A stretch of 64,000 nucleotides of DNA from Mycobacterium florentinum (GTDB lineage: Bacteria > Actinomycetota > Actinomycetes > Mycobacteriales > Mycobacteriaceae), in the NCBI RefSeq assembly GCF_010730355.1, contig NZ_AP022576.1, forward strand, positions 2,356,001-2,420,000, written 5' to 3'. Both the position numbers and the translations under genes were made by a program. Positions 56,852-64,000 of this stretch are shown here, in pieces. The notes under the pieces are model-generated. The model made no database searches. It was not told where the DNA came from and worked only from the letters and a program-made list of their open reading frames with translations. Numbering within the stretch: the stretch's first letter is position 1; each line of letters begins with the position of its first letter.

Positions 56852-58096
56852 ATGCCCCGCTCAAAAGCTCTCGTACGTTCCGCATCCTGCCTGGCAGCGA
56901 CCGTTTTTGTGATGGCCGCCCCGGCCGCTGCGGGCATGCCGGCCGCGCTCGCGGAGCCGAGCCCCGGGCCCAATGCCGGAGCGCCGAACTGCCCGTACAA
57001 GGTGAACACCCCACCGGCGGTGGACTCGTCGGAGGTACCGCAGGCCGGTGACCCGCCGATCCCGCTGGCGGTGCCGGCCAAGCCGGTGGGCGGCGAGGCG
57101 CTGAGCAGCTGCGGCATCGTCGCCGCGCCTGATACTCCGGCACTGCCGACCGACGTCTCCGCCGAGGCCTGGCTGGTCGCGGACCTGGACAGCGGCGCGG
57201 TGATCGCGGCCAAGGATCCGCATGGCCGCCACCGCCCGGCCAGCATCATCAAGGTCCTCGTCGCGATGGCCGTCCTGAACGCGCTGCCACTCAACAAGTC
57301 GGTGACCGGGACGGCCGACGACGCCTCCGCCGAGGGCACCAAGGTCGGCGTGGACGACGGCGGCGTCTACACCGTCAACCAACTGCTGCACGGGCTGCTG
57401 ATGCACTCGGGTAACGACGCGGCGCACGCGCTGGCCATGCAGCTGGGCGGGATGCAGCAGGCGCTGGAGAAGATCAACGTGCTGGCCGCCAAGCTCGGCG
57501 GCCAGGACACCCGGGTGGCCACACCGTCGGGACTGGACGGACCCGGCATGAGCACTTCGGCCTACGACATCGGCCTGTTCTACCGATACGCCTGGCAGAA
57601 CCCGACTTTCGCCGCCATCGTCGCGACCCGGACGTTCGACTTTCCCGGCCACGGCGACCACCCGGGCTACGAGCTGGAAAACGACAACCAGCTGCTCTAC
57701 AAGTATCCGGGCGCCCTGGGCGGCAAGACCGGCTACACCGACGACGCCGGCCAGACGTTCGTGGGCGCCGCGAACCGCGACGGCCGGCGGCTGGTGGCCG
57801 TGTTGATGCACGGCACCCGGCAACCGATCGCGCCCTGGGAGCAGGCGGCGCACCTGCTGGACTACGGCTTCGCCACCGCGCAGGGCACCCAGGTGGGTGC
57901 GCTGATCGCACCCGACCCGTCGCTGGCACCCAAGCAGGACAGCGCCGCGGACCGGCAGAGCAACGGCGCCCAGGCCGCCGGATTGCTGCCATCGGCCGAC
58001 GCGTTGCCGGTGCGGGTGGGCGTGGGCATCATCGGCGCCATTGTCGTGTTCTCGTTGATCATGGTCGCGCGCTCGATGAACCGCCGGACCATATAA
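56852..58096 (+). CDS. dacB1: D-alanyl-D-alanine carboxypeptidase DacB1
   Basis: A 414-residue low-molecular-weight penicillin-binding protein (Rv3330). An N-terminal signal ([19 protein letters not shown]) leads to a peptidase S11 domain. The SxxK motif is in [15 protein letters not shown] in [11 protein letters not shown] and KTG in [13 protein letters not shown]-terminal membrane anchor ([24 protein letters not shown]) fixes it to the membrane. It trims the terminal D-Ala from peptidoglycan stems. The last two codons and the stop lie within a sequence that is repeated before the second mmpS at 62398. Confidence 0.95.
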
Positions 58097-58142
58097 CGAT
58101 TAACTGGAAACTCTCGATGCTTTAACGCATCGACGGTAGCGT
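58089..58142 (+). repeat. Upstream element of the mmpS-mmpL unit, copy A
   Basis: A 54-bp segment repeated at 62398-62451: shared CCATATAACGATT, CTCGATGCTTTA and GACGGTAGCGT blocks with small differences. It contains TCGATGC-TTTAAC-GCATCGA (58114-58133), a perfect 7-bp-arm hairpin, and a likely -10 box TAGCGT (58137-58142). It begins inside the last codons of dacB1. Confidence 0.6.
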
Positions 58143-58174
58143 CTATCTCGCTAACGCAACCAAACGGGGTAAAG

Positions 58175-61087
58175 ATGATTTCGATTACCCGAGTCGTGAA
58201 GCGAATGTTGTTGCTGTTGGCGGTCATCGCCGTCGCACCGAATTCCGGGCCGCCATTTCTGCCGCGGATTATCATCCGCTTTGCGGTGCCGATCGTTCTG
58301 TTATGGGTGGGGCTGACCGCCGTCGTCAATCTGGCCATCCCGCAGCTGGAAGTGGTCGGCAAAGCACACTCGGTATCCCTGAGCCCGAAAGACGCGGCCG
58401 CGGTCCAGGCGATCAAGCACGTGGGCCAGGTATTCCATGAGTTCGAGTCCAACAGCTCGGTGACGATTGTGCTGGAAGGTGACAAACCGCTCGGCGACGA
58501 CGCTCACCGTTTCTACAACGAGATGATGCGCAGGCTTTCGGCCGATACCCAGCATGTCGCGCACATCCAGGATTTCTGGAGCGACCCGCTGACGGCCCGG
58601 GGATCGCAGAGCGCGGACGATAAGGCCGCCTACGTCGTGGTGTTCCTGGTCGGCAACAACGAAACACAGGCCTACAACTCGGTTCACGCCGTCCAGCACA
58701 TCGTGAACAGCACCCCGGCGCCGCTCGGGGTCAAGGCATACATCACGGGTCCGTACGCGCTGATCGCCGACCAGACCGAGGCCGGCGACAAGAGCGTCGC
58801 CAAGGTCACCCTGACTACCGGCGTGGTGATCGCGGCGATGTTGCTCTTCATCTACCGGTCCGTCGTGACCATGCTTCTCCTGCTCGGCCTGGTTGGGGTC
58901 GAGCTGGGGGCAATTCGCGGGGTCATCGCTTTTCTCGCTCACCACAACGCTTTCGGGCTTTCGACCTTTGCGACAAACCTGGTCACCCTGCTCGCCATCG
59001 CCGCCAGCACGGACTACGCGATATTCATGCTCGGGCGTTATCACGAGGCGCGCTACGGCGGCGAAGACAGGGAAACCGCGTTCTACACGATGTTTCGCGG
59101 GACCGCCCATGTGATTCTGGGCTCGGGCATGACCATCGCCGGCGCCATGTATTGCCTGAGCCTTGCCCGACTTCCGTATTTCCGGACGCTCGGCGCCCCC
59201 TGTGCCATCGGCATGTTGGTCGCGGTCCTCGCCGCGCTGACGCTCGGGCCGGCGGTGCTGACCGTCGGCAGCTTCTTCAAACTGTTCGACCCCAAGCGCA
59301 GGATGGCCACTCGGCGCTGGCGCCGGGTGGGAACCGCCATCGTTCGCTGGCCCGGCCCGATGCTCGCCGCGACGTGCGCGGTGGCGTCCGTTGGCCTGCT
59401 GGCCCTGCCGAATTACCAAACCACTTACGACTTGCGCAAATTCATGTCCGCCAGCATGCCGTCGATCGTCGGGGATGCGGCCGCGGGTCGACACTTTTCG
59501 CAGGCCCGGCTGAACCCCGAGGTGCTGCTGATCGAATCCGATCACGACATGCGTGATCCGGTCGACATGGTGGTGTTGGACAAGGCCGCGAAAGCGATCT
59601 TTCACACCCCTGGAATCGCACAGGTGAAATCGATAACCCGGCCCCTGGGAACGTCTCTCAAACATACGTCGATTCCGTTCATCCTCAGCATGCGCGACGT
59701 GATGAATGCCGAAAACATGGAATTCATGAAGGGCCGAGTGGACGACATGCTGGTCCAAGAGCAGGCGATGGATGTATCGATCGAAACGATGCACAAGATG
59801 TACGACCTGATGGGTCGGCTTATCGACGATAACGTCGACATGGATCACCTGACCCACGACATGTCGAACATCACCGACACCATCAGGGATCACTTCGCCG
59901 ACCTGTCGGATTTCCTCCGGCCAATTGTCAGCTACTTCTACTGGGAAAAACACTGTTTCGATATCCCGATCTGCTGGGCGACGAGATCGATATTCGATAC
60001 GTTCGACAACGTCGATCAGCTGAGCGAGAAGCTTGGGCATTTCGCCAAGGACATGGACGTGCTGATCAACCTTTTGCCCCAGATGCGGGCGCAGCTCCTC
60101 CCGATGATTTCGACGTTGACCACCTTGCGCGACGTGCTGGTCGTTTGGCACGGCACACTTGCGTCTCTTTATGAAGAGCAGGAGCGCAACAGCAAGGACC
60201 CCGGTGCCATGGGTCGGGCCTATGACGCCGCCCAGGTTGACGATTCGTTCTATCTACCGCAGTCGGCCTTTGATAATCCGGGTTTCAAGCGGGTCCTGAG
60301 CATGTTCTTGTCGCCGGACGGCAAGGCGGCCCGCTTCATCATCTCCCTCGACGGAGCTCCCGCGACGCCCGAGGGCATCTCCCGTGTCGAGCCGATCCAG
60401 CAGGCGGCGAGGGAGGCGATCAAGGGAACTCCGCTGCAGGGCGCCGCGATCTCCATGGGCGGCGTCGCCGCGACGTTCAAAGACCTCCAGGAGGGCGCCT
60501 TCTACGATCTGATGATCGCCGTGGTGGCCGCGATCAGCCTCATCTTGATCATCATGATGATCGTCACCCGAAGCGTGATTGCCGCCGCCGTCATCGTCGG
60601 CACGGTGCTGCTTTCCCTGGGCTCGTCCTTCGGCCTGTCCGTGCTGCTCTGGCAAGACCTTCTCGGCATCGACTTGTACTGGCTGGTGTTGGCGATGTCG
60701 GTGATGCTGCTGCTGGCCGTGGGATCGGATTACAACCTGTTGCTGATCTCCCGGCTCAAAGAGGAAATCGGCGCCGGTCTGAACACCGGACTCATCCGTG
60801 CGATGGCCGGCACCGGCGGAGTGGTGACGGCGGCCGGCATGGTCTTCGCCGTCACCATGTCGCTGTTCGTGTTCAGCGATTTGCAAATCATCGGTCAGAT
60901 CGGCACCACCATCGGCCTGGGCCTGGTTTTCGACACGCTGATCGTGCGCTCGTTCATGACACCGTCGATCGCCGCCTTGCTCGGACGCTGGTTCTGGTGG
61001 CCGCAACAAGTACGCCCACGCCCGGCCAGTCGGATGCTCAGATCGTCGGGACCCCGCCGTTTGGTGCGTGCCCTGTTGCTGCCCTAG
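58175..61087 (+). CDS. MmpS-N-terminus::MmpL fusion transporter (970 aa)
   Basis: Residues 1-21 ([21 protein letters not shown]) are the N-terminus of an MmpS protein, nearly identical to the intact MmpS at 62515. From about residue 30 ([19 protein letters not shown]) the protein is a full RND-type MmpL. It has two periplasmic loops, 12 predicted membrane helices, the [21 protein letters not shown] and [16 protein letters not shown] proton-relay motifs, and a complete C-terminus. MmpL proteins export lipids or siderophores with an MmpS accessory subunit. Here most of mmpS and the mmpL start are gone and the frame is continuous from the mmpS start. Relatives are of the MmpL4/MmpL5 type. Confidence 0.88.
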
Positions 61088-62300
61088 CCGGCCCGGGTGC
61101 GCCCAGTGCCGCAACGGCGGCGGCGGCGGCCAGGACCACGACGATGGCGACCGGCCAGATCTTGGAGTGGTTTTGCGCGATCCCGCCCAGCGCCCCGCCC
61201 AGTGCCGTGGTTTCGATCGCGAGCAGCGTCGAGCAAAAGCCGATCAGGGTGACGCGGTGGGGTTCGGCGGCGACCACGCCGACCCACGAGATCGCCGCGG
61301 CGAAGACGGCGAGGGCGGCCACCGTCGCCAGCAAGAACACGGTGCCGTAGGCCCACATGTGAAACCACTGTCCGCACGCCTCGGCCGCGATGGACAGCAC
61401 GCCGGCGGCGGCGCTGAGCAGGGCGCTGCCCAGCAGCATGCCGCGCACCCCGAACAGCTGGTAGACCTTGCGCCACAACGCGGAACCGATGACCAGTCCG
61501 ATGGTGGACAGAAACACCAGCACATGCAGGGTGCCGCTCTGGTGCGCGGTACGCAGGGCATAGAAGGTCATGCCCAGGCTGAGCGGGGCGAACAGCAGGC
61601 ACGTGATCACATACCGGCGAAACCAAGGCTGGGTGCGGGCAACCCCGAAGCCGCGCCGCCAGGTGTCGCGCACGGACATCCGTGGGGCGATCGAATCCGA
61701 CCGCGCCGGGCCGACGAACAGTGCCGCGAAGCCCGAGGCAGCCAGTCCGAACGCACCCAGACACAGCAGATCGCGGTGCAACGCCAACTTGTCGCCGGTG
61801 GCCAGCCCCGGCACGAGGAACAGCGCGGCAACGGTGGCCACCACCGAGGCGATGGCCCCCTGTACCGACAGCATCCTCAACGCGGACAGCTTGCCGGAGG
61901 TCGTGTCGGGGTACGCGACATTGGCGACAGCGACGATGACTCCGCCCCCCGCGCTCGTCAGCAGAAACACCGCCGCCGCGAGCATGCCGTTCCAGCGGAT
62001 CATCGCGTCGCACAAGATCAGCGCGGCCGCACTCGCCGCCATCGCGGCCAGCAGCAGGTGCCGCATCTGGCCGACGCGCCGCAACACCGCCGGTGACATC
62101 GAATTTCCCACGATGGAGCCGAGGCCGTACGCCGGAAACAGGAGCGCGGCCAGCCAGGTGAGGCCCAGGTGCGCGCAAATGAACGGCAGCACCACGGCGC
62201 CATTGCTGAACTGCATGCCGGCCGTGTAGAACGCGCCCTGCGAAGGCAGGCGCGGGAACGGGTTCGTGTGTGCCGAAATCTCCGCCGGCAATGCGGCCAT
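61038..62300 (-). CDS. MFS-family transporter
   Basis: A membrane protein of about 420 residues with 11-12 predicted helices and a large central loop (about 190-215), typical of the major facilitator superfamily. [29 protein letters not shown] is the loop 2-3 region, and the later half contains [26 protein letters not shown]. The substrate is unknown. ATG 62300 is chosen as start; the frame opens at 62396 without a good start signal. The gene sits on the opposite strand between the two mmpL units and overlaps the first one's 3' end by 50 bp. Confidence 0.78.
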
Positions 62301-62397
62301 GGCATTAACAGTATGGGCGCTGAGCAGGTAAAAACTATCCACCGATCGGACACGGCCGGACGAGTTGGGTGTCCCCCGGTTGGGGGAACGGCTCAAT

Positions 62398-62451
62398 CCA
62401 TATAACGATTGTCCGAAAGGCTCGATGCTTTAGCACATTGACGGTAGCGTA
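62398..62451 (+). repeat. Upstream element of the mmpS-mmpL unit, copy B
   Basis: The second copy of the element at 58089-58142, starting with the same CCATATAACGATT and ending in TAGCGT. The hairpin is imperfect here (CGATGC-TTTAGCA-CATTG). It lies about 65 bp upstream of the intact mmpS. Confidence 0.6.
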
Positions 62452-62514
62452 AGCGCCGAACGCATTGAGACATCAAATCGTTTTGCGACCCGGTAACAAA
62501 GCGCGGGAGTAAAG

Positions 62515-62952
62515 ATGGTTTCGGTTACCCGAGTCGTGAAACGAATGTGGTTGCTGCTGGCCGTTATTGCGATCGCCGGCGTCGCGGGGCTCGGAATCTA
62601 TCGCCTGCATAGCATGTTCGGCGTTCATGGACATCCCGTTGTCAGGGTCAAGGCCGATCTCGATGATCCAGTGTTCGACCCGAAACAAGTGACGTATGAA
62701 GTCTTCGGTCCTGCCGCGACCGCAAAGATCGCCTATTTGGATCCCGACGCCCGGGTGCAACGTCTGGAGAATATTCCGCTGCCGTGGTCGCAAACCCTGT
62801 CGACGACGCTGACTTCGGTCACCGTCAACCTTTTGGCGCAAAGCAACGGCAGCGTCATCGGCTGCCGAATCAAGGTGAACGGCGCGATTAAGGACGAGCG
62901 ATCCGAGACCGGACCGAAAGCACTGACTTTCTGCCAGGTGAATGCCGGATGA
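62515..62952 (+). CDS. MmpS-family membrane accessory protein
   Basis: A 145-residue MmpS protein. [25 protein letters not shown] is the short cytosolic N-terminus and single membrane helix. The periplasmic domain has the family's [36 protein letters not shown] and [26 protein letters not shown] with a conserved cysteine pair. It works with the adjacent MmpL in envelope lipid or siderophore export. GGGAGTAAAG precedes the ATG. Its stop overlaps the mmpL start by four bases. Confidence 0.92.
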
Positions 62953-64000
62953 GCCGGGCACCCAAGATAATCCGCCGATTTGCAGTGCCGATCGTCTTGT
63001 TGTGGCTGGGGCTCACGGCCGTGCTCAATATCGGCATCCCGCAGCTGGAGGCGGTCGGCAAAGCGCACTCGGTCTCGATGAGCCCCAAAGGCGGCGCATC
63101 GGTTCAGGCGCTCAACCGGGTGGGACAGGTATTCGGTGAGTCCGGCACCGATAACGCGGCCACGATCGTGCTGGAAAGCGACAAACCACTCGGCGACGAC
63201 GCTCACCGTTTCTATAGCGAACTGGTGCGGCGGCTTTCGGCCGATACCCAGCACGTCGCGCACATCCAGGACTTCTGGAGTGACCCGCTGACCGCCGGGG
63301 GATCGCAAAGTGCGGACGATAAAGCCGCCTATGCGGTGGTCTACCTCGCCGGCACGACAGAAACCGCGGCATACAACTCGGTCTACGCCGTGCGGCACAT
63401 CGTGGACACCACGCCGGCGCCGCGCGGGCTCAAGGCGTATGTGACCGGCTCGATGGGGTTGATCGCCGATCAATCCGAGGCCGGCGACAAAAGTATCGCA
63501 AGGGTCACCCTGATTACCGGCGTGGTGATCGCGGCGATGTTGCTGTTTATCTACCGCTCGGTCGTGACCATGATCCTCGTCGTCGTCCTGGTCGGGATCG
63601 AACTGGGGGCAATACGCGGAGTCGTCAGTTTTCTGGTCTATCACGGCGTTTTCGGCCTCTCGACCTTCGCGGTCAACTTGCTCACCCTGCTGGCCATTGC
63701 CGCCAGCACGGACTACGCGATATTCATGCTCGGCCGCTACCACGAGGCCCGCTACGCGGGTAAGGACCGAGAAGCCGCCTTCTTTGCGATGTTTCACGGA
63801 ACCGCCCATGTGATTCTGGGCTCCGGGTTGACTATCGCCGGCGCCATGTATTGCCTCAGCTTTGCCCGACTGCCGTACTTCAAGTCGATGGGCCCGCCCT
63901 GCGCGGTGGGCATGCTGATTGCGGTCCTCGCCGCACTCACGCTCGGACCGGCGGTGCTGACCATCGCCAGCCACTTCAAGCTGTTCGAACCCAAGCGCAA
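62949..64000 (+). CDS. MmpL-family RND transporter (3' end outside window)
   Basis: The first 350 residues of an MmpL transporter, running off the window end. [31 protein letters not shown] is the first helix, then the periplasmic loop and helices 2-6 with [21 protein letters not shown]. It is strongly similar to the fused copy at 58175 over its whole readable length, so the two are paralogues from one duplicated unit. It is translationally coupled to mmpS (ATGA). The substrate is unknown. Confidence 0.93.

Follow-up and report, generated by a model that had tools for sequence, protein, structure and literature searches.

The window analysed here, a 64,000-nucleotide stretch of a complete Mycobacterium genome (G000; single contig, 6.22 Mb, 100% complete), carries two adjacent transporter units. 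They are flanked by a gene for a dacB1-like D-Ala-D-Ala carboxypeptidase (56852..58096, forward strand; Pfam PF00768), which was matched in 19 of the 20 stretches fetched from relatives. Unit A contains a fused gene of mmpS head and mmpL (58175..61087, forward strand, ATG start, 970 aa), referred to as copy A, and a convergent open reading frame for an MFS-like transporter (61038..62396, reverse strand). The latter is also present in the units of relatives; its product scored 18.9 with PF07690, below the cut-off of 33.4. Unit B contains mmpS (62515..62952, forward strand, 145 aa; PF05423, 181.5 bits), the product of which matches the MmpS5 and MmpS4 chains, and an mmpL (62949..64000, forward strand) that runs past the window end and is open in the genome. 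The two genes overlap by ATGA at 62949 and form the normal coupled pair that had been predicted. In 168 fetched loci, which were not deduplicated, the ATGA overlap was seen in 133 of 143 mmpS-mmpL pairs with an mmpS match of 90 aa or more, and single-frame pairs in none (0/143).

At copy A, in contrast, a complete mmpS with the ATGA overlap is absent upstream, and only about 21 mmpS codons are present. The original prediction of a single 970-residue frame was correct: codons 1 to about 20 of 58175-61087 derive from mmpS and the remainder is a complete mmpL, in one open frame of 970 codons. The product scored above the cut-offs of PF03176 (699 bits, in two MMPL stretches) and TIGR00833 (952.4 against 874.7). 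MMPL was the sole domain of the fused protein, PF05423 being absent in the profile search at an E value of 0.001. The Asp-Tyr pairs of TM4 (D280 Y281; 59012..59017, forward strand) and TM10 (D852 Y853; 60728..60733, forward strand), for which the literature describes a role in proton relay, are invariant in an alignment of 63 rows (A1). The coiled-coil domain spans residues 496-697 (59660..60265, forward strand), with limits transferred by alignment from M487 and V690 of the model in PMC12803245, and C594 and C600 at its tip are likewise invariant in the sequences of A1. The MMPL domains and both Asp-Tyr pairs are those of the MmpL family, and the coiled-coil domain with paired tip cysteines indicates a putative MmpL4/5 type. 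The closest solved chains by sequence are MmpL4 and MmpL5, matching over residues ~19-956.

The first 33 bases of copy A (codons 1-11) are identical to unit-B mmpS at 62515 in 30 positions. The following 30 bases (codons 12-21) match at 22 positions; elsewhere along the forward strand of the 12.5 kb locus, the best placement of this fragment reached 19/30. The mmpS-derived part is thus placed at codons 1-21 (58175..58237, forward strand), and its 3′ limit is fixed only to within four codons. The last four codons (58226..58237, forward strand) form a junction zone, I-A-x-A, common to mmpS codons 18-21 and mmpL codons 4-7: unit-B mmpS has I-A-I-A, the mmpL of copy A in a related genome (G164) has I-A-D-A, and the fused gene has I-A-V-A at the corresponding place. 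The G164 copy retains an intact mmpL start, which reads MSEIADAPNSGTPVLPRM, with GCGCCGAATTCCGGC at the equivalent position, and the N-terminus of protein P0002 shows the mmpL's own residues equivalent to AATTCCGG. These N-termini indicate that AATTCCGG is the mmpL's own N-terminal sequence, so that the deletion also extended over about six codons at the mmpL start and spared no tail of mmpS. An mmpS-tail origin of the AAT-x-CC-GG bases and of AATTCCGG, considered initially in the form of a residual junction, was rejected on the same grounds, as these bases belong to mmpL. The one-base length change proposed to restore the frame is not needed, since the deletion alone yields one frame. Of the predicted extent of the deletion, retention of about 21 mmpS codons and loss of the mmpL start stand, while mmpL also lost about six codons. 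A single in-frame deletion brought mmpS codons ~18-21 and mmpL codons ~4-7 together, and its exact base cannot be fixed.

The identical junction was found in copy A of G031, the DNA of which has 89% identity to that of G000 over 612 bases. The same junction at 11% DNA divergence rules out an assembly error, and the window comes from a complete single-contig genome; the chance that the junction is a sequencing or assembly artefact is negligible. Nor is the deletion recent, as had been suggested, since the fusion is common to both genomes. A query with residues 1-60 against a collection of 5.8 billion proteins gave 13 proteins from 61 candidates. Among the N-termini of P0001, P0002, P0004 and P0012, the mmpS-derived part was seen only in P0001, the record of the window itself. 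The cluster of P0001 lists three contigs, possibly because this strain has been assembled more than once.

A common element lies upstream of both units, ATAACGATTAACTGGAA at 58093..58109 in unit A and its counterpart at 62402..62418 in unit B (both forward strand; mismatch-free pattern search). A genome-wide search for ATAACGATT-NN-CYGNAA gave just two mismatch-free sites, 58093 and 62402, in agreement with the prediction of a shared upstream element. The ATAACRATT motif was found upstream of all 12 A copies and of 15 of 18 unit-B or single copies. An inverted repeat, TCGATGC-N6-GCATCGA (58114..58133, forward strand), is flanked by the shared element and by a −10-like hexamer, TAGCGT, and could, from its sequence, be an operator or a 5′ hairpin. 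Both arms are altered in G164 and G076 (CGACGC/GCGTCG), and a perfect repeat was not found in several other copies. A promoter and terminator scan of 58050-58350 detected nothing.

The Shine-Dalgarno-like CGGGGT (58165..58170, forward strand) ahead of the mmpS ATG gave a duplex energy of −6.3, computed, as were all duplex energies, against an anti-Shine-Dalgarno sequence. The value was −6.9 for unit-B mmpS and 0.0 to −3.6 for seven other in-frame candidate starts of copy A; at 58205, which is the annotated start of P0001 in place of 58175, it was −2.5. Having the best ribosome-binding site tested in frame, 58175 is the putative start of copy A. In-frame ATG, GTG or TTG codons ahead of TM1 occur only at 58175-58217, within the mmpS part. 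An internal mmpL start, which would have removed the basis of the fusion, is therefore unlikely; past the mmpS part a CTG exists at 58259.

The mmpS-derived residues were compared between the two fusions. G000 and G031 do not differ over codons 1-13. Over codons 14-21 they differ at six bases, with a change of amino acid in four cases; two of these four are prolines in G031. All 18 mmpS copies examined encode Trp at codon 12, where both fusions have Leu. This Trp corresponds in the alignment to Trp9 of MmpS5, a residue described in PMC12501195 as touching a phospholipid. The divergent codons 14-21 and the missing Trp make the head resemble a start site and not a working helix. The MmpS tail and partial helix had been taken for a retained element, but conservation of the half-helix is lacking and it is probably no more than a leader. 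It is conceivable that the head acts as a built-in functional tether, the fused half-helix lying on TM8 of the MmpL and partly replacing MmpS. The fused N-terminus of G000 is indeed hydrophobic (19-residue mean 1.81, against a peak of 2.16 in unit-B MmpS), and the MmpS transmembrane helix packs on TM8 in MmpS5-MmpL5 according to PMC12346298 and PMC12501195. However, the hydrophobic run is of only about ten residues, the mean over residues 1-19 of G031 with its two prolines is 1.16, the conserved Trp is lost in both fusions, and other lineages are without any head. A tether is thus very improbable.

To place the fusion among relatives, junction DNA was searched in 396 genomes of the genus, drawn from a larger group, with two candidates scored per genome, so that all counts are minima; 20 stretches were taken from the best-scoring genomes. 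Copy A was found in at least 12 of the 396 genomes (G000, G031, G164, G076, G250, G224, G326, G238, G089, G227, G116 and G155), and the remaining eight of the 20 stretches have one mmpS-mmpL each. The predicted duplication of mmpS-mmpL is seen in these loci, and the repeated unit additionally includes the convergent MFS gene (mmpS-mmpL-MFS). Two gene orders were observed, dacB1-A-B and aminotransferase-A-dacB1-B; they could have arisen if the duplication had extended to dacB1 and each order had then lost a different copy of it. In the DNA tree, A copies of different species (G076 apart) group separately from B and single copies, with a weak support of 57, which suggests that the duplication is old. 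Four genomes in which copy A was not found (G110, G235, G277 and G361) fall among the B sequences; copy A has therefore probably been lost more than once.

A complete mmpS was present ahead of copy A in none of the 12 genomes, and the copy-A mmpL is intact in nine of them. The remnants of mmpS differ. In G000 and G031, mmpS codons 1-21 are fused to mmpL. In G164 and G076, codons 1-11 and the last four codons make a 15-codon open reading frame that overlaps mmpL's own start, and in G250 (similarly in G089) only the last four mmpS codons remain. M. nebraskense (L015), which is outside the 12 genomes and whose contig ends within the locus, has the last ~14 mmpS codons after a GTG, followed by an intact mmpL start. 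In G224, G326, G238 and G155 a short piece resembling the mmpS tail follows a GTG and is fused in frame to mmpL, and in G227 and G116 the start of a leader open reading frame is fused to mmpL. The states of G000/G031, G164/G076 and M. nebraskense are not interconvertible by deletion alone and hence need at least three deletions, unless unit B re-donated sequence; the other states could be further steps of these deletions. The same partner has thus been lost repeatedly, through differing deletions.

A short leader open reading frame, MGALSRTS* (MGALSRTL* in G326), is located ahead of copy A in L154-L156, L160 and L015. A TACGTT hexamer lies seven bases upstream of its ATG, and the start is possibly leaderless. 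It is the initial codons of this frame that are joined in frame to mmpL in G227 and G116. At the G031 locus (L150), one-base gaps are present in the mmpL of both copy A and unit B, and unit-B mmpS has a 68-base gap, its frame ending after 102 codons. A 13-base deletion in copy A of G031, suggested by overlapping tblastn pieces, was rejected, as the nucleotide alignment has one single-base gap.

Substitutions in the fused mmpL were counted on each branch after the G000-G031 split. The G000 branch has 31 nonsynonymous and 47 synonymous changes, a dN/dS of ~0.22 that differs from neutrality (p 4e-11); the copy-A protein has been under purifying selection since that split. On the G031 branch dN/dS is also 0.22 despite a frame broken by one base near residue 124, and the break is therefore recent or an error. 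Constraint is looser than in unit B of the same genome, which has 6 nonsynonymous and 29 synonymous changes (p 0.019). Among intact A copies (ten sequences, one of them partial; 45 pairs) the median pairwise dN/dS was 0.167, and among 16 B and single copies (120 pairs) it was 0.121.

Copy A could also be a relic on its way to a pseudogene, with an open frame that is transient. Such decay would be in keeping with the looser constraint, with the broken copies of G031, G076 and G089 and with the close relatives G110, G277 and G361, in which copy A was not found; conversion by B over the 3′ half might also be enough to make a copy appear intact. Against this, nine frames are intact, and in G000 the frame is open with a post-fusion dN/dS of 0.22, far from 1, which is not the pattern of a pseudogene. 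We consider a relic unlikely.

The 3′ halves of the A and B mmpL are probably being homogenised. Over the four C-terminal TM helices, the A and B copies within a genome differ by 0.04-0.26 at fourfold sites (eight genomes), and the A copies of different genomes by 0.26-0.39 (four genome pairs compared). This makes the A/B tree unreliable there. Apparent homogenisation was seen in L149, L151, L154-L156 and L158-L160 and is strongest in G164 (fourfold difference 0.04). Copy A of G076 (L152) is an A/B recombinant that has an A-type 5′ end and groups with unit B of G164 in the tree; unit B is no longer present beside it.

The requirement for MmpS has been described for related pumps. MmpL5 without MmpS5 confers no efflux, and MmpS5 is not replaceable by MmpS1, 2 or 4, as stated in PMC12501195 and PMC7845600; MmpS holds TM8 and the coiled-coil hairpins according to PMC12346298 and PMC12803245. 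All nine genomes with intact copy A have an intact 145-codon unit-B mmpS, and in the three without it (G031, G076 and G089) copy A is broken (Fisher p 0.0045, for 12 genomes related by descent and uncorrected for kinship). In G076 and G089, which are draft genomes, the latter only 92% complete, unit-B mmpS had no close match (best 40% and 36%). G250 has a one-base insertion in unit-B mmpL, with unit-B mmpS and copy A both intact. General decay of the whole module would, however, also give 9/9 against 0/3, and this counts against the explanation favoured here.

The coiled-coil domain, which is gripped by MmpS, has changed about twice as fast in A. In eight genomes with both copies intact, its amino-acid changes number 148 for A against 66 for B (Fisher p 1.7e-5), with similar silent change per fourfold site (A 1.24, B 1.47); TM8, its limits set by eye, shows no excess (A 10, B 11). 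Coiled-coil dN/dS is 0.178 in A, 0.096 in B and 0.088 in six close single-copy mmpL genes, and that of the rest of the protein is 0.144, 0.136 and 0.094, respectively. When the single-copy set comprised twelve genes, some of them more divergent, the coiled-coil values were 0.166 for A, 0.123 for single copies and 0.089 for B, and those of the rest 0.150, 0.120 and 0.120. The proposal that the coiled coil is relaxed only in A stands in comparison with unit B and the six close genes but is weakened by this smaller contrast. MmpLs that lack an mmpS gene act as stand-alone inner-membrane transporters, and copy A may likewise work without any MmpS while its coiled-coil domain drifts. Relaxation of the coiled coil fits a weaker dependence on MmpS and is less expected if A still needs it. 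Yet the domain remains constrained in A (dN/dS well below 1), the contrast shrinks with the wider single-copy set, and among the 12 genomes intact A never occurs without intact unit-B mmpS. Independence from MmpS is possible but doubtful, and sharing of the unit-B MmpS is favoured over it at modest odds.

We therefore lean, with some reserve, towards copy A being a working MmpL that has recycled its start from mmpS, with the unit-B MmpS as its probable partner. Of the two alternatives offered originally, a chance open frame or a working gene that borrows the neighbour's MmpS, the second is now the better one. Copy A would be an MmpL of the MmpS-dependent MmpL4/5 class that lost its own MmpS through a single deletion with both ends in in-frame I-A-x-A codons; this took all of mmpS from about codon 22 onwards, along with ~6 codons at the start of mmpL. 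Translation of mmpL would now begin from what is left of mmpS, namely its upstream region, its ribosome-binding site and its initial ~20 codons, and the extra N-terminal residues would serve as a leader rather than an MmpS helix. The substitution counts show that the protein is under selection, and, judged from co-retention, it would most likely assemble with the MmpS encoded a few kilobases downstream; one MmpS may thereby serve two MmpLs. In related species the loss of mmpS has been repeated through different deletions.

More generally, it appears reasonably likely that an MmpL4/5-type transporter has been uncoupled from MmpS repeatedly and independently after duplication. The outcome would be a pump of MmpL5 type that needs no MmpS, or else two MmpLs, possibly in mixed trimers, that draw on one MmpS in trans. 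The frame would then be kept by whatever start remains, be it mmpS head, mmpS tail or leader open reading frame. In recent structures MmpS locks the MmpL trimers and the coiled-coil tube together, and MmpL5 alone is nonfunctional. A natural series of intact MmpLs without MmpS thus tests whether MmpS must be made alongside, can be shared or can be dispensed with. The locus also illustrates how an overlapping gene pair loses one partner while the other survives.

MmpLs without an adjacent mmpS, such as MmpL3, 7, 8, 10 and 11, belong to separate subfamilies. Copy A likewise lacks a cognate mmpS but is of MmpL4/5 type, and the loss is recent enough for remnants to be seen. It shares the coiled-coil domain and Asp-Tyr pairs with the siderophore and drug RND exporters MmpS4-MmpL4 and MmpS5-MmpL5, the usual ATGA-coupled arrangement of which is that of unit B. 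Unlike these, it lacks a dedicated MmpS and begins with ~20 residues that derive from MmpS. The glycopeptidolipid operon mmpS4-mmpL4a-mmpL4b also has one MmpS gene beside two MmpL genes, according to PMC5996870. That is a single operon, whereas here each unit has its own upstream element and the convergent MFS gene at 61038-62396 separates them; moreover, the copy-A remnants of this and other lineages reveal a second mmpS that has since been deleted. In the open-licence literature searched, mainly titles and the beginnings of abstracts, no description was found of an MmpS-MmpL fusion or of duplication with loss of mmpS. The parts are known, and an MmpL4/5-type gene restarted from a deleted mmpS within a series of repeated losses was not met with in that literature. 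The genome of the window has a large set of MmpL and MmpS proteins: MMPL domains were matched 39 times and PF05423 16 times, the latter including six weak, partial matches.
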